Origin: a virus
DNA length: 20,697 nt
Strand: one strand, 5' to 3'
IMG/VR virus record: IMGVR_UViG_3300030943_000196
Coordinates: 1-20,697 of that record
The notes beneath the pieces are model-generated. The model was not told the DNA's origin. It did not search any database and saw only the letters and a list, made by a program, of their open reading frames with translations. Shown piece after piece: positions 2,252-14,468 of the stretch. Every line of letters starts with the position of its first letter. Within the stretch, counting starts at the first letter, position 1. The position numbers and the translations under genes are program-made.

Positions 2252-4408
2252 TTACCAGTTTCCTTTTAAGATTTCCTCTGTTTTTTCCTCTTCAGTCATA
2301 ATGAATTGCTGTTGTGCTGTATTAAACCATCGTGTCATACGGCATCCATTACGCATGATCTGTCTCCTTTCAAGTTTTATTGAATCTCGAAGTATTGATG
2401 ATATAGACATTTCTTCAAACTTTCCCATTGGCTTTGATGCAAAGCCTCCATGAAGACAGTTTTTGTATACTTGTTCAATGCTTATTCCATCAATGCGATC
2501 CTTTTCGCTCAAAACTGTGTAATACCACTCTGTTACTTTTCCTTCGTTTGGATCTGCGATCCTTCGCTTGTTTTGCTCTGCAACTGTTTCTTCTTCAGGG
2601 AACTCATGCACTGTTTCTTTGAGTACGGTTAAGCGATGATACGCTTCTGCGAACATTTGCTCTCGATTTGCTTCAATCCATTCGGTCTTTGCTTGTTCAA
2701 ACATCACAGTCACAGGGAGCCAGCGACGGTTTCCAGTTTCGTCTTTCAAGTATTCTGTCTGGTTCGTTGTCATTGCGAATACACAACGGCGGGGGAAATC
2801 TTGCGAGGTGCGTTCGTATGGTGGGCGGTACTTGTCGCTTTGCATAGTGATGATTGCCTTCATCCTCTTAACTTCTGTGCGTGATAATGTTTCACCCTCT
2901 GAGAACTCTATAATGGCCTTGCCTTGGAACTGCATGAAGAAGTCTTTAGATTCGGTCGACATAGCCGTTTCAACGTGCCAATTGCCACCGAGGATGGCCA
3001 AGGAGGTCGATTTACGTGCTCCTTGCTTACCTTCGAGCACTAGAACGTAGTCAAACTTGCATCCGGGGTCTATGAGACGCTTCACGAGTCCTTTAATCCA
3101 GTTACTTCCAACCGCTTTATGGTATTTGTTGTCCATCACTCCGAACACTTGCGAAAGCCAGGTGTCGAGGCGAGCTTTTCCATCCCACTTAATGTTTTTG
3201 ATGAAGTCCGCGGCGCTGTCGTAGGCATTCTCTTTTGATACTTTGATAATAGCGTCGTAAATCATTTCCTTTCCCACCTTTCCGAACCATTCTTTAAAAT
3301 CGATTGAGATTTGCGCCTGTACGTTGACCGCGTCATTGTCCTCGAGCGTTCGCCACTTCACCCCTTCTTTTATTTCGTACATGCCCTTGAATGAGTCGAA
3401 GCGGAATTTGCCGGAGAACTGTTCGCATTTTCTTAAGATTCGACACATGTTCTCGGTATTTTGGAGGAACTTTGGAGCGCCGTTCGAGCCGATAACAAAG
3501 AGTAAATCGAGGTCAGGTGCTTTCTTTTCCATTTTCTGAATTTGCGATTCATACACGTTCGTGCACTTTGCGATGGCGTTTCTGATACTGCGATCGCGGT
3601 AGTCTTTGCGTTGCTGTGTCTTTTCCCTGTTACCAAGAGGTGACGACATCCATATCCTCTCCATTTGGTCCGCGTTCTTTGCTGTCCAAAAGGCTAGATG
3701 TGCGAGGAGACCCATGTCAGCCGTACTTCCATCGCCTTTATATTCTGATGTATCTCCGTTATAAAGTTTTTCGACATCCGCGCCATTCTTTGATGCGAAC
3801 ATGCGACGGAGTATTTCTGAGTCATCCATGGAGAGCGACACAGATGGTGTGGAAACTTTCTCAGCGGATTTTTTTTCTTCACTCTTGCCCCAGGGGTATC
3901 CAATGATCGAGAGTAGGCGAAGCGCTTCCTCTGGTGTCACCTTGGCGACTTCCATATCTTTTACGTATACATTTTCTGTGACGGTGAAGTATCTGCCCTC
4001 GGTGTAACATTCGAAAGGCTCTTTTTTATTTGCGATGAGCTTGAGTTCGCCTTCAATTTCGAGGAACAAGTGGAGGCCATCGCCGGACGGGCTCACTTCA
4101 GAGTATGTGTTCGCTTCGAGTAATAGTTGCGCTATTACCTCTTTCTGTTCGTGTTCAATCTTTCCATCAACAAGGACGTGATCGAGGTCAATGCCAAGAA
4201 GGTTGCGAGCAGGTGTGAATACGATACCAATTTGAGGAGAAGACTTTTTCGCGGTTGCGTAGGTGGACCAGGTTGCGGAGTCGGTTGATGACGCTAAAGT
4301 GCCATCGACTGAATATGGAATCTTAGTCATGCGATCTCCTTTCTTTACCTTTCGGTAGTTGACCCATCGTGAATCATTTTCAAACTTTTGTACGAGTGCG
4401 TTTTTCAT
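2252..4408 (-). CDS. Primase-helicase: Prim-Pol-like N-terminus plus VapE-type ATPase
   Basis: Predicted 718 residues. The N-terminus has features of the archaeo-eukaryotic Prim-Pol fold: GIDLDH with metal-binding acids at about 74-76, SPSGDGLH at about 106-113, and a strand RYFTVTEN at about 139-146. A helical linker with NREKTQQRKDYRDRSI follows (about 260-275). The C-terminal half matches the Virulence-associated E P-loop ATPase family: NIKWDGKARLDTWL (405-418), Walker A EGKQGARKST (459-468), Walker B-like IIEFSE (499-504), sensor TTN (547-549) and NRRWLPV (560-566). Such proteins make primers and unwind DNA at phage, plasmid or island replication forks. It heads the operon that continues with the nuclease. 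Its leader contains promoter P2 and a terminator-like hairpin (4435-4515), so its synthesis may be attenuated. No Shine-Dalgarno. Confidence 0.92.
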   Translation of the reverse strand: MKNALVQKFENDSRWVNYRKVKKGDRMTKIPYSVDGTLASSTDSATWSTYATAKKSSPQIGIVFTPARNLLGIDLDHVLVDGKIEHEQKEVIAQLLLEANTYSEVSPSGDGLHLFLEIEGELKLIANKKEPFECYTEGRYFTVTENVYVKDMEVAKVTPEEALRLLSIIGYPWGKSEEKKSAEKVSTPSVSLSMDDSEILRRMFASKNGADVEKLYNGDTSEYKGDGSTADMGLLAHLAFWTAKNADQMERIWMSSPLGNREKTQQRKDYRDRSIRNAIAKCTNVYESQIQKMEKKAPDLDLLFVIGSNGAPKFLQNTENMCRILRKCEQFSGKFRFDSFKGMYEIKEGVKWRTLEDNDAVNVQAQISIDFKEWFGKVGKEMIYDAIIKVSKENAYDSAADFIKNIKWDGKARLDTWLSQVFGVMDNKYHKAVGSNWIKGLVKRLIDPGCKFDYVLVLEGKQGARKSTSLAILGGNWHVETAMSTESKDFFMQFQGKAIIEFSEGETLSRTEVKRMKAIITMQSDKYRPPYERTSQDFPRRCVFAMTTNQTEYLKDETGNRRWLPVTVMFEQAKTEWIEANREQMFAEAYHRLTVLKETVHEFPEEETVAEQNKRRIADPNEGKVTEWYYTVLSEKDRIDGISIEQVYKNCLHGGFASKPMGKFEEMSISSILRDSIKLERRQIMRNGCRMTRWFNTAQQQFIMTEEEKTEEILKGNW

Positions 4409-4434
4409 TTTAGTTTTGCGAAATGTTTTTTACA

Positions 4435-4515
4435 GACAAAAAAGAGCCAAAAGACTGCTGCGGGCGCATGACTTCCCGTCCGGGTGTTCCCGGAATCTGT
4501 TGGCTCTTTTTTGTC
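4435..4515 (-). terminator. Long-stem terminator with branched interior in the primase leader
   Basis: A perfect 16-bp inverted repeat, GACAAAAAAGAGCCAA (4435-4450) and TTGGCTCTTTTTTGTC (4500-4515), encloses 49 bases. Inside are two further GC-rich hairpins: CGGG/CCCG (4461-4464 with 4475-4478) and TCCGGG/CCCGGA (4479-4484 with 4489-4494). On the minus strand the 3' arm carries a T6 run, so it can act as an intrinsic terminator for the zinc-ribbon genes. It lies after promoter P2 and before the primase start, so it may also attenuate primase transcription. The interior is larger than in a simple terminator. Confidence 0.75.
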
Positions 4516-4559
4516 GATAAATATGTAAATGATGTCATGTGTTTTTCAGCAATGGATTC

Positions 4560-4608
4560 ATTATACTTCCGTGTCATACAAGTGCGCAAGTTTTTAAGTT
4601 GTGGATAA
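4560..4608 (-). promoter_or_regulatory. Early promoter P2 with upstream DnaA box
   Basis: On the minus strand, TTATCCACA (4608-4600) is followed by 10 bases, TTGCGC (-35, 4589-4584), an 18-base spacer ending ACACGGAAG, and TATAAT (-10, 4565-4560). The DnaA box overlaps the last codons of the downstream zinc-ribbon gene. The predicted transcript starts near 4553 and reaches the primase gene after about 145 bases of leader, through the 4435-4515 hairpin. Confidence 0.75.
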
Positions 4609-4911
4609 AGTGTTGAAACAACGTTTACATAGTTTGTGTGATTCATACTCTTTTAAAAAATCTCTTACACCGCAACGAGTACAATGCCTCCTGCCTGGTG
4701 TATTTTTTATGAGGATGTTTCTCTTTCTGCGTTGTTTCCTTTCTTTTTTATTTTGTTTATTAAGCACATCTCTATGGTATACGTCCATGAACTCTGCGGA
4801 AAGTTTGTCGGATTTAATTTGAGATAGCATGATTTTAAACACAGTATTTTTTGTATGTGTTTTTAGAAGTCTATTTTTTACCGTCGTATATTGTTTTCTA
4901 GTGTTATTCAT
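4594..4911 (-). CDS. Small basic zinc-ribbon protein (paralog 1)
   Basis: Predicted 105 residues. The N-terminal part (KQYTTVKNRLLKTHTKNTVF, about 6-25, through AEFMDVYHRD) is closely similar to the neighbouring gene at 4904-5215. The middle is strongly basic (about 52-70). The C-terminus has a four-cysteine zinc ribbon, C77-x2-C80-x14-C95-x2-C98. Such ribbons bind Zn and commonly sit in DNA-binding or transcription-related phage proteins. The ATG overlaps the stop of its paralog by 8 bases, so the pair is an operon made by tandem duplication. The gene ends inside promoter P2, with its last codons forming the DnaA box. The family is not recognised; a DNA-binding regulator is an inference from the ribbon and charge. 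Confidence 0.75.
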   Translation of the reverse strand: MNNTRKQYTTVKNRLLKTHTKNTVFKIMLSQIKSDKLSAEFMDVYHRDVLNKQNKKERKQRRKRNILIKNTPGRRHCTRCGVRDFLKEYESHKLCKRCFNTLSTT

Positions 4912-5215
4912 TTAATTTAATCCAGGTTATGCAGGGAGAGCACAAAACTTGTTTATGGTGGATCTCAAGGAAGAGCGAGGAACCACAACGAAGACATTTT
5001 GATGTTTCTTTTGAGTATTTATGGATGAGCTTTTTTTGTTGTGATCGGTGTCTGACGACTGTATTTCTTTTATCAGTTTTTCGATCATTATAGATGTCTA
5101 AAAATTGCGCGGGAAATCTGCCTGATTTTATGCCGAAAAGTATGATTTTATTTGTCACACTTTCCGAGTGAGTTTTGAGGAGTCGATTTTTGATTTTTGA
5201 GTATTCTTTTTTCAT
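4904..5215 (-). CDS. Small basic zinc-ribbon protein (paralog 2)
   Basis: Predicted 103 residues from ATG 5215-5213. This start aligns with that of the downstream paralog (MKKEYSKIKNRLLKTH against MNNTRKQYTTVKNRLLKTH). A start at 5248 would add 11 residues. The shared N-terminal domain covers about residues 1-45 and the middle is basic. The C-terminal ribbon has the same spacing as in the paralog, C74-x2-C77-x14-C92-x2-C95. It is the first gene left of the repeat-rich region 5230-5540. An ACGRAAGCAT-like element (GCGGAAGCAT, 5229-5220) lies immediately before the start codon, in the place an autoregulatory operator could occupy. A role binding the nearby repeats is possible but unproven. Confidence 0.75.
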   Translation of the reverse strand: MKKEYSKIKNRLLKTHSESVTNKIILFGIKSGRFPAQFLDIYNDRKTDKRNTVVRHRSQQKKLIHKYSKETSKCLRCGSSLFLEIHHKQVLCSPCITWIKLNE

Positions 5216-5544
5216 TTTGATGCTTCCGCGAATTACTACCTGGTGCATGAGTGAGTAGTAGGAGGTAGTAGCCTACTCTGAAGTAGAAACACAGGTATGT
5301 ATGGCCGTTATTTCTTATTACTACTTACTACTACTTACTATTATATAAGATGATTACTATAAAAGTCAAAGGGTGGGGTAGAAACGGTGTATACGTAAGC
5401 ATGGTAAAAGGGGTATATATAGGAAAAGTGAGTAGTAGGTGTAGTAATGGGTATCACAATACATAAACTGTGTTTATTTGTAGCCCTATCTCACTACTAC
5501 TTTGGGGGGTGTAGTAATTAGGAAAAGAGAGTAGTAATGTGTTA
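5216..5544. repeat. Gene-free region dense in GTAGTA/TACTAC repeats; possible origin or operator cluster
   Basis: No convincing gene lies between 5216 and 5611. GTAGTA occurs at 5255, 5265, 5432, 5441, 5511 and 5531. Its reverse TACTAC occurs at 5234, 5319, 5326 (extended to TACTACTAC) and 5495. Longer direct repeats are GTGAGTAGTAGG at 5251-5262 and 5428-5439, and TAGGAAAAGWGAGTAGTA at 5420-5437 and 5519-5536 (one mismatch, 99 bp apart). GTAGAAAC repeats at 5283 and 5379, and AGTAG-C-CTACT at 5267-5277 is an inverted repeat. An ACGTAAGCAT element occurs at 5393-5402. Clustered short iterated sites in a non-coding stretch near a primase gene fit a replication origin or a multi-site operator. 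Confidence 0.7.
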
Positions 5545-5572
5545 AAAAAACGTGTCACAAGACACGTTTTTT
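5545..5572 (-). terminator. Intrinsic terminator, probably bidirectional
   Basis: AAAAAACGTGTC (5545-5556) and GACACGTTTTTT (5561-5572) form a perfect 12-bp stem with a 4-base loop (acaa). A and T runs flank both sides, so it can stop transcription either way. It lies 39 bases beyond the stop of the coiled-coil gene at 5612 and separates that operon from the repeat region. Confidence 0.9.
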
Positions 5573-7396: not shown

Positions 7397-7861
7397 ATGG
7401 CAAAGACTAAAAAGAAAAATATCCTTGATGAGAATGAGGAAATTATGGGAGGTTTAAACCCTGAACAAGAAAGATTTTGTCGATTATATGCTAGTGACAA
7501 AGAGTTTTTCGGAAGCGGTATTGAATCATATATCGAGGCGTATGACCCGGACCAGAGCAATCCTAACTGGAAAAATTCAGCGTACGCATGCGCTTCTCGT
7601 CTGTTAAAACGGGCTAAGATTATCAAGCGTATAAACGAGCTTTTGGAGCTTACTGGATTCAATGAAGTATCAGTCGATAAAGAGTTACACTTTTTAATCA
7701 CTCAACACGCGGACTTTCCATCGAAGATCGCAGCAATCCGCGAGTTCAACAAATTAAAAAAGCGTATTTCCGACATCTCACCTGTGACCATTGTGATGCC
7801 CACTCCAATTTTCGGCGGTAGTTCAAAGAAACCCAATGAGCGAACTACTGACAAAAAGTAA
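7397..7861 (+). CDS. Terminase small subunit
   Basis: Predicted 154 residues from ATG 7397. A TTG at 7391 in the same frame lies within the presumed transcription start. The pattern LNPEQERFCRLYASDKEFFG (about 22-41), a predicted helix-turn-helix stretch (YIEAYDPD, then SAYACASRLLKRAKIIKRIN) and a C-terminal FLITQHADFPSKIAAIREFN segment are typical of the Terminase_2 family. Small subunits recognise the packaging site on phage DNA and hand it to the large subunit. The TerL gene follows directly, with its ATG overlapping the end of this gene by 26 bases. The short Ser/Lys tail (SSKKPNERTTDKK) overlaps the TerL start. Confidence 0.88.
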   Translation: MAKTKKKNILDENEEIMGGLNPEQERFCRLYASDKEFFGSGIESYIEAYDPDQSNPNWKNSAYACASRLLKRAKIIKRINELLELTGFNEVSVDKELHFLITQHADFPSKIAAIREFNKLKKRISDISPVTIVMPTPIFGGSSKKPNERTTDKK

Positions 7862-9098
7862 AGAATACGAGCAAGACTTTCTCGATAGAGAGTTCACATT
7901 TCGAGTCGTTACATCGATGGAGAAAGTTTTTGCATTAACGAAACGTATCCGCGGTGTATCCGGCGGTACTTCAGCGTCAAAGACCATTTCAATCCTCGTA
8001 TGGCTCATAGATTATTGCCAGGTAAAACAAGAGAGAGATAAACTTTGTCACGTTGTTTCTGAATCATTTCCACATCTTGAAAGTGGTGCGATGCTCGATT
8101 TCAAAAACATAATGAAAGACCGCGGGTACTGGAATGATAATCTATGGCATGAGACTAAACACGAGTACACATTTGAAACTGGTAATCAGCTTCGCTTCAT
8201 GTCTGTTGATTCATACGGTAAAGCCCACGGACCGAGACGCGATGTCCTTTTTGTAAATGAAGCGAACAACCTTGAATGGAAAATAGTTGACCAATTAATT
8301 ACTCGTACAAGGGAGACTGTGTGGCTTGACTGGAACCCATCTGAGGAGTTTTGGTTCTATACTGAGTTATTAAACAAACGTGAAGACGTGGATTTTCTAA
8401 CGCTTACATATTTGGATAATGAAGCGCTTGACCAAAACACTATTGCCGAGATTGAATCCCACAAACATGATCGCAACTGGTGGCCGGTGTATGGCCTGGG
8501 TAAGCTCGGAGTAATCGAGTCACGAATATATAAAGATTGGAAGATAATACCTGAGTTACCACACGAGGCGAAGCTAGTAAAAAGAGGTTTGGACTTTGGG
8601 TACACAAACGACCCGACTGCGATCATCGACATCTACACATACAATGGAGGAATCATCCTTGACGAAGTAGCGTATCAAACGCGAATGCTCAATAAAGACA
8701 TCATCGATGTTTGTAAGTCACTTGAGAAAGTTACAATGATCGCTGACTCGAGCGAGCCTAAATCAATCGAGGAAATATCACTTGCGGGAATACTTATAAT
8801 GCCCGCGATTAAAGGCCCGGGATCAATCAATAAAGGTATTCAGAAAGTGCAGAGCGAGCGTATATCAGTCACGGCACGTTCAGTGAACACTATCAAAGAG
8901 TATCGCAATTATCTTTTCGTAACTGACAAGAATGGCAATGTTACGAATGAACCGACTGACCGAAACAATCACGCGATGGACGCGATCAGGTATGCAATCA
9001 ACGCATTGCGAAGCGTTACCCAAGAAGGTGCGGCGGAAAAGCAAAAGGTTCGTATGCAGTTGAACAGAAACAGAGCGGAGTTAAGAAGCACAAAATAG
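7836..9098 (+). CDS. Terminase large subunit (ATPase plus nuclease)
   Basis: Predicted 420 residues, normal for TerL. The N-terminal packaging ATPase has Walker A SGGTSASKT (42-50), Walker B DVLFVNE (136-142) and the coupling motif TVWLDWNPS (161-169). The C-terminal RNase H-like nuclease shows its three acidic positions: GLDFGY (D253), MIADSSE (D304) and HAMDAIRYA (D382). The arrangement fits the Terminase_3/6C-type superfamily. The protein docks on the portal, drives genome translocation with ATP and cuts concatemers. The gene overlaps TerS, and the portal gene starts 35 bases later. It uses TAG as stop. The start at 7836 is the most upstream ATG; the next in-frame ATG would delete about 27 residues. 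Confidence 0.95.
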   Translation: MSELLTKSKEYEQDFLDREFTFRVVTSMEKVFALTKRIRGVSGGTSASKTISILVWLIDYCQVKQERDKLCHVVSESFPHLESGAMLDFKNIMKDRGYWNDNLWHETKHEYTFETGNQLRFMSVDSYGKAHGPRRDVLFVNEANNLEWKIVDQLITRTRETVWLDWNPSEEFWFYTELLNKREDVDFLTLTYLDNEALDQNTIAEIESHKHDRNWWPVYGLGKLGVIESRIYKDWKIIPELPHEAKLVKRGLDFGYTNDPTAIIDIYTYNGGIILDEVAYQTRMLNKDIIDVCKSLEKVTMIADSSEPKSIEEISLAGILIMPAIKGPGSINKGIQKVQSERISVTARSVNTIKEYRNYLFVTDKNGNVTNEPTDRNNHAMDAIRYAINALRSVTQEGAAEKQKVRMQLNRNRAELRSTK

Positions 9099-14408: not shown

Positions 14409-14468
14409 CTTCAGCCTTTATGGCTGAAGAGAGCATACCGAAAACGATATTATCTCTTTAGCCATAAA
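14409..14468 (+). promoter_or_regulatory. Two mutually exclusive leader hairpins
   Basis: Hairpin I pairs CTTCAGCC (14409-14416) with GGCTGAAG (14422-14429). Hairpin II pairs TTTATGGCTGAAGAGA (14417-14432) with TCTCTTTAGCCATAAA (14453-14468): 16 bp with one G-U pair around a 20-base loop. The two share the segment 14422-14429, so only one can form at a time. The start codon at 14477 lies 9 bases after hairpin II. This is the layout of a translation or processing switch, although the longer stem II should dominate. Confidence 0.6.

Follow-up and report, generated by a model that had tools for sequence, protein, structure and literature searches.

Comparative analysis of a candidate translation-coupled attenuator in the leader of phage primase-helicase genes

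Introduction

In the virus record analyzed here (20.7 kb; the whole stretch is called the window below), the gene of a VapE-type primase-helicase is preceded by a large terminator-like structure, and a transcript from the promoter upstream of it would have to cross this structure before reaching the gene. The locus thus raises the question of what such a structure does at the start of a replication gene. An initial annotation of the window had proposed a regulated leader, either an attenuator, an antitermination site or a ligand-sensing RNA. Here we compare the leader with those of related loci and conclude that the RNA stretch before the primase is probably a switch setting the amount of replication protein. 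The reading that we prefer, at a probability of about 0.5, places a translation-coupled attenuator at the start of the primase-helicase mRNA.

Results

The primase-helicase locus and the leader promoter

The product of the controlled gene (Table 1) matches the VapE-like helicase domain (PF05272, E=1.3e-67), the helix-bundle domain of the NrS-1 polymerase (HBD, PF22763, E=3e-15), and helicase/primase families of PHROG. No obvious Shine-Dalgarno site was found at any gene of the window. Two small ORFs adjacent to each other on the minus strand (4594-4911 and 4904-5248) are paralogous, with 34% identity (E=8e-20). Both have a zinc-finger-like end (CxxC..CxxC) and match neither Pfam nor PHROG families. 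They are placed between the primase promoter and a cluster of short repeats at 5240-5560, with the types ACTACTACTT, AGTGAGTAGTAGG and GGTGTAGTAAT, which are possibly the iterons of an origin; repeats with other sequences occupy a similar place in relatives. Two further strong inverted repeats with short loops, at 14417-14468 and 1240-1278, are probably ordinary terminators.

Table 1. Features of the primase-helicase leader in the window, ordered along the record
Feature	Position	Strand	Sequence or description	Basis or remark
Controlled gene	2252..4408	-	VapE-type primase-helicase, 718 aa	ATG at 4408
Leader ORF	4410..4538	-	42 codons, MTSFTYLSTKKSQQIPGTPGREVMRPQQSFGSFLSVKNISQN	stop TAA 4412-4410
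B'	4435..4450	-	3' arm with U6 tract, TTGGCTCTTTTTTGTC	T run common in relatives
A2'	4454..4460	-	CAGCAGU, linker adjoining B'	first five bases unpaired in nested fold
Inner hairpin 2	4461..4478	-	CGGG...CCCG; loop bears A1' GUCAUG (4472-4467)	fold
Inner hairpin 1	4480..4493	-	CCGGG AACA CCCGG	fold
B	4500..4515	-	5' arm of terminator-like stem, GACAAAAAAGAGCCAA	folding/inverted-repeat search
A1	4534..4539	-	CAUGAC, complementary to GUCAUG 4472-4467 in apical loop of hairpin 2	sequence/fold
A2	4547..4553	-	AUUGCUG, 5' end, complementary to 4460-4454 (CAGCAGU)	sequence/fold
Predicted +1	4553..4553	-		inferred: 7th base after -10; ATG position in relatives
-10 box of leader promoter (P2)	4560..4565	-	TATAAT	sequence; equivalents in relatives
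DnaA-box-like site	4599..4607	-	TTATCCACA	perfect match; just upstream of leader promoter

The relatives are primase/helicase loci collected by protein searches, the closest being 38-63% identical; they lie on partial metagenomic contigs, and their promoters, stems with B arms and start codons were picked by eye. A promoter, P2, had initially been placed upstream of the stem. Its -10 box is perfect, but the -35 box is weak, either TGCGCA, spaced by 17 nt, or TTGCGC, by 18 nt, and P2 is absent from the list produced by a generic promoter scan of the window. The promoter gains support from the relatives, in which a comparable TATAAT-type box lies about equally far from the stem and is often accompanied by a -35 box (TTGC..). 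Since the leader ATG codons of the relatives lie 5-7 nt past the -10 box, the transcript of the window is predicted to begin near 4553, which points to a start within the interval (4515 to 4600) named for it in the initial annotation.

Upstream of the promoter, the relatives often have short repeats and a DnaA-like box. Of 23 loci, 8 have a perfect DnaA box at most 150 nt upstream of the -10 box, where shuffled sequences would give 0.12, and this proximity suggests that the leader promoter is probably located at or near a replication origin.

The terminator-like stem

The core of the structure is a perfect minus-strand stem of 16 bp (4515-4500 paired with 4450-4435), extended by longer imperfect arms (4429-4454/4496-4521). 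Folding also recovered the two additional GC-rich hairpins within it (4493-4480 and 4478-4461), so that the stem, its interior and the downstream ATG at 4408 all agree with the initial description. The minus-strand RNA 4521-4429 has a folding energy of -43.4 kcal/mol, compared to -21.0 +/- 3.1 for dinucleotide shuffles (z -7.3; 0/200 shuffles fold as well), and for the whole predicted leader the z-score is -6.4. The stem is missing from the output of a terminator scan because the scan admits only loops of 3-8 nt.

Among the 24 loci described below, a T run of at least four at the 3' end of the stem is present in 15, versus 18.5% of background 18-mers, and a mirror A run in 10; the U run is missing at B' in L006, L105, L212 and L217. 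In the window, a T run is found at the end of the stem on the plus strand as well, and the stem is therefore terminator-like on both strands. Together with the two minus-strand ORFs upstream, these U tracts favor an ordinary bidirectional terminator at which transcription of the small genes at 4594-5248 would end, some of it reading through into the primase. We regard this as quite improbable, since it leaves unexplained the complementarity of the 5' end and the loop, as well as the start codon at +1 and the ORF end at the primase start in the relatives (see below), and since a promoter-like site lies between the upstream genes and the stem.

Complementarity between the 5' end and the loop

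The upstream regions of most relatives follow one plan, from a promoter through a long stem with a large loop to the gene. In this plan a segment near the predicted 5' end (A) is complementary to a segment of the loop (A') in front of the 3' arm of the stem. The initial annotation missed this pairing, as it did the upstream DnaA box and the extension of a leader ORF to the primase start. The resulting order A-B-A'-B' was annotated before a primase/helicase gene in 24 loci; L110, which has this order by eye but no clear promoter, was left out of the count.

To quantify the pairing, the bases from the -10 box to B (U) were hybridized with the loop between B and B'. In the window this duplex has an energy of -18.4 kcal/mol (p=0.002 against shuffles), and its own partner is better than all 40 swapped ones. 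Over the 24 loci, the mean energy of the own duplexes is -16.8 kcal/mol, compared to -8.6 +/- 0.67 for swapped partners. The same is seen in the 17 loci whose B arm was chosen without looking at A, where own pairs average -15.4 kcal/mol versus -8.8 +/- 0.73 for permuted ones, the lowest of 20,000 permutations being -12.2; for the first 21 loci, own against permuted partners gave p<=5e-5. In two loci the pairing is no better than in shuffled sequences (L005, p=0.42; L105, p=0.55). The permutation test was adopted in place of a generic scan for crossing helices: besides the primase leaders, that scan picks up 8% of control upstream regions at z>=4, and it gives many matches in the GC-rich L006.

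The initial annotation had made its reading depend, in advance, on conserved pairing in relatives; what the 24 loci keep is the topology, not the sequence. Their stems have almost no sequence in common, and an exact search of viral contigs for the loop sequence of the window gave no match. The A and A' arms differ between loci yet remain complementary, which amounts in substance to covariation, judged at the level of loci. The closely related L217 and L220 are identical in all four arms despite differences in the spacers and the loss of an incidental hairpin. The geometry is also constrained, U being 42-53 nt long in 21 of the 24 loci and A' adjoining B' with a gap of 0-1 nt in 10, which would allow the two helices to stack. 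A finer plan is common, by eye, to the window, L007, L091, L093, L095 and L104: the last inner hairpin bears A1' in its apical loop, and most of these loci have a second segment, A2', in the linker preceding B'. The equivalent of A1/A1' is CAUUAC/GUAAUG in L006, L007, L091 and L095.

A complex leader structure in front of one gene is also what a small-molecule riboswitch would look like. The relatives, however, lack a common sequence core and their arms differ; no Rfam family matched at the gathering score, and the sub-threshold matches were at chance level only. We consider a riboswitch highly improbable. Of the leader types proposed at the outset, the ligand-sensing one is thus disfavored, and the attenuator is now the best supported.

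Strand of the element

The energy of the U/loop pairing is the same on both strands (-16.8 sense, -16.7 antisense). Wobble pairs give no preference and were rejected as a means of deciding the strand, so that the strand assignment rests on the promoter, the ORF and the U tract. Two other explanations draw on this symmetry.

In plasmids R1 and those of the IncI type, an antisense-controlled leader precedes the replication gene. By analogy, a counter-transcript could bind the loop and the 5' end of the present leader and set the level of replication protein; the position before a replication gene, the nearly pure Watson-Crick complementarity, equally good on the antisense strand, and the terminator-like character of the stem on the plus strand would all suit such control. 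We think it improbable, as the promoter scan lists no plus-strand promoter just before the stem, although weak ones could escape it, and as A runs that would end an antisense RNA occur in only 10 of the 24 loci.

Alternatively, the structure might act in DNA as part of an origin, in the form of a cruciform, of protein-binding inverted repeats, or of a primer RNA/R-loop. Near-perfect Watson-Crick pairing without strand preference, the DnaA boxes beside the promoter and the short repeats at 5240-5560 are compatible with this view, to which we give slightly more weight than to antisense control while still considering it unlikely: the interleaved A/A' and B/B' cannot both be nested cruciforms; the T run at B', the leader ORF and the promoter indicate an RNA of one strand; and the recognition motif of the NrS-1 primase (TTTGGTTA) shows no enrichment around the leader.

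The leader ORF

In the window, an AUG at 4538, 15 nt into the predicted transcript and in frame with the AUU codon at the predicted +1, opens a short ORF that spans the structure; a single base separates its stop codon from the primase ATG. Leaders were searched for ORFs with an ATG in the first 45 nt after the -10 box and an end at -16 to +12 of the gene start. Of 18 leaders, 13 contain such an ORF, 30-56 codons long, where dinucleotide shuffles would give 1.14 +/- 1.02. The ATG of 10 of these ORFs lies 5-7 nt past the -10 box, and 8 of the 13 have a stop codon (TGA) that overlaps the primase start as ATGA. L090 carries an equivalent ORF with GTG as its start codon; two TATAAT boxes overlap upstream of it, and the GTG follows the second at a distance of 7 nt. 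The frame from +1 to B' is open on the sense strand in 12 of 14 leaders and on the antisense strand of the same palindromic DNA in 5 of 14. In L006, the leader ORF has the same reading frame as a NUMOD3/HNH homing endonuclease gene (7414-7980), which would be expected of a leader start in use. The sequence of the leader peptides is not conserved, as judged by eye, and none of the 13 contains a run of regulatory, amino-acid-sensing codons.

In L008, L109, L307, L308, L310, L217 and L222 the pairing is present and an ORF spanning the structure is absent or very short; among the loci with a helicase-only gene, this applies to all except L007. Translation is therefore not universal to the element. 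These seven leaders speak for a structure-only attenuator or a dual sRNA/mRNA locus in which the ORF would be secondary: the docked pseudoknot and the terminator would make a stable RNA of ~120 nt, acting in trans or limiting read-through. The terminator-like 3' end and a 5' end locked in structure fit this explanation, and isrK provides a prophage precedent (PMC4825925). Against it, the conserved sequence that a trans target would need is missing, and the excess of leader ORFs is strong; we consider it doubtful.

Predicted order of folding

We folded the nascent chain with a program that predicts nested structures only and leaves pseudoknots unscored. Before B' is made, the 5' segment pairs with the loop in 20 of 23 loci, with a mean of 12.5 pairs compared to 4.9 for shuffled 5' segments (p=4.5e-6); on addition of B', 19 of the 23 are predicted to go over to B:B'. 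In the window, the predicted structure of a 108-nt chain (-24.5 kcal/mol) has a closed 5' end, and that of a 124-nt chain (-42.6 kcal/mol) contains the terminator. The exceptions are of two kinds. In L008 and L109 a very long A:A' helix is predicted to win even in the presence of B', and in L310 and L105 the four arms are present and the nascent-chain folds lack A:A'. Folding of the 5' end with the loop first and of B:B' second is thus the predicted order. Of the hallmarks of attenuators, the succession of promoter, short ORF and terminator-like stem before a gene is found in these leaders, and an early alternative structure yielding to the terminator appears in the predictions.

Distribution of the leader

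The A-B-A'-B' leaders precede three kinds of protein: the full NrS-1-like primase-helicase, a protein with a different N-terminal primase domain (L104/L107), and a helicase only (L007, L008, L109, L307, L308 and L310). Other relatives lack the leader by eye (L097, L098, L099, L101, L108, L111 and L214; L219, L221, L223, L225, L267, L268 and L373), and these about a dozen distinct cases make it an optional module of the locus. In L104, L107 and L108 the VapE-type helicase part carries an N-terminal primase domain other than that of the window, and in L007/L008/L109 it carries none. Domains are swapped at a fixed locus, and the leader module is kept in most. In L105 and L212, homologous proteins of ~75 aa (43% identity) are encoded between the leader structure and the primase.

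Discussion

Proposed mechanism

The comparison of loci shows a conserved A-B-A'-B' order, an ORF running through the structure, and a terminator-like 3' end. Under the translation-coupled attenuator that we prefer, transcription would start near 4553, close to the DnaA box, and the 5' end of the RNA (A) would bear, or adjoin, the start of the short leader ORF. If no ribosome has been loaded when A' emerges, A:A' would pair and hide the 5' end. On the emergence of B', the B:B' stem with its U tract would form and replace A:A', or else both helices would coexist as a pseudoknot that docks the 5' end beside B'. RNA polymerase would then tend to stop, leaving a leader RNA of ~120 nt. An early ribosome, on the other hand, would hold A off A' and then cross B, so that the terminator could not form and RNA polymerase would continue into the primase gene. 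Translation would thereby be the antiterminating event and the dosage of primase the output. Translating ribosomes are known to prevent intrinsic terminators (PMC5021804), and 70S initiation on a 5'-terminal AUG also has precedent (PMC9031893). The ribosome would finally end at a stop codon overlapping or adjoining the primase ATG, where it may restart, a coupling with published precedent for ATGA (PMC6728339) and of importance here because the genes of the window show no obvious Shine-Dalgarno sites.

The direction of control is inferred, as is any signal, which may be no more than the translation capacity early in infection. Alternatively, the A:A' helix could be an antiterminator by which B:B' is delayed; control would then have the opposite sign.

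Implications

More tentatively, these leaders may constitute an undescribed class of RNA switches defined by topology alone, in which a leaderless 5' end docks into the loop of a downstream terminator. Perhaps, again tentatively, only the transcripts caught by a ribosome within about the first hundred nucleotides would become mRNA for the replication protein. If the attenuator reading is correct, early replication in many uncultured phages is gated by a race between the ribosome and RNA folding at the start of the transcript; if the topology-only switch is real, the phage gauges the translation capacity of its host before committing to replication. Lacking any conserved sequence, an element of this kind would escape covariance-model searches, and similar switches with a conserved architecture may be widespread and overlooked. 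We found no description of such a leader in the open-access literature, a scope that makes this weak evidence of novelty. The model makes simple predictions about the position of the 5' end, the short leader RNA, and compensatory mutants.

Comparison with known systems

The tap/repA locus of plasmid R1 and repY/repZ of IncI-alpha have a coupled leader peptide before the replication gene, the latter also with a pseudoknot, and are controlled by antisense RNA and at the level of translation. The present leaders resemble them in the coupled leader peptide before a replication gene, the pseudoknot here being a potential pairing only, and differ in the terminator-like stem, beside which no antisense promoter is listed.

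As in the leader-peptide attenuators of the trp and his type, the gene is preceded by a promoter, a short ORF, alternative structures and a stem with a U tract. In contrast to these, the present leaders have no regulatory codons and have the start codon at the predicted 5' end, their structures cross rather than share strands, and the ORF continues across the terminator as far as the start of the gene.

The isrK-orf45-anrP locus of prophage Gifsy-1 combines a terminated leader RNA with a coupled small ORF (PMC4825925). As proposed for the present case, transcription from a single promoter yields a short RNA that is terminated and a longer mRNA made by read-through, a small ORF is translated ahead of the downstream phage gene, and alternative structures are silencing. 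Unlike here, the pairing partner of IsrK is the downstream 3' part of orf45, and the short IsrK activates in trans; the putative leaderless start and the ORF running through the terminator that mark the present leaders are absent from the isrK locus.

Finally, leaderless mRNAs such as that of lambda cI bind 70S ribosomes directly at the 5'-end start codon (PMC9031893). In 10 of the 13 leaders with an ATG ORF, the ATG is placed at the predicted 5' end, and the window has AUU at this position. Unlike in cI, the putatively leaderless ORF is very small and not conserved, and pairing of its first codons with the downstream loop is possible.
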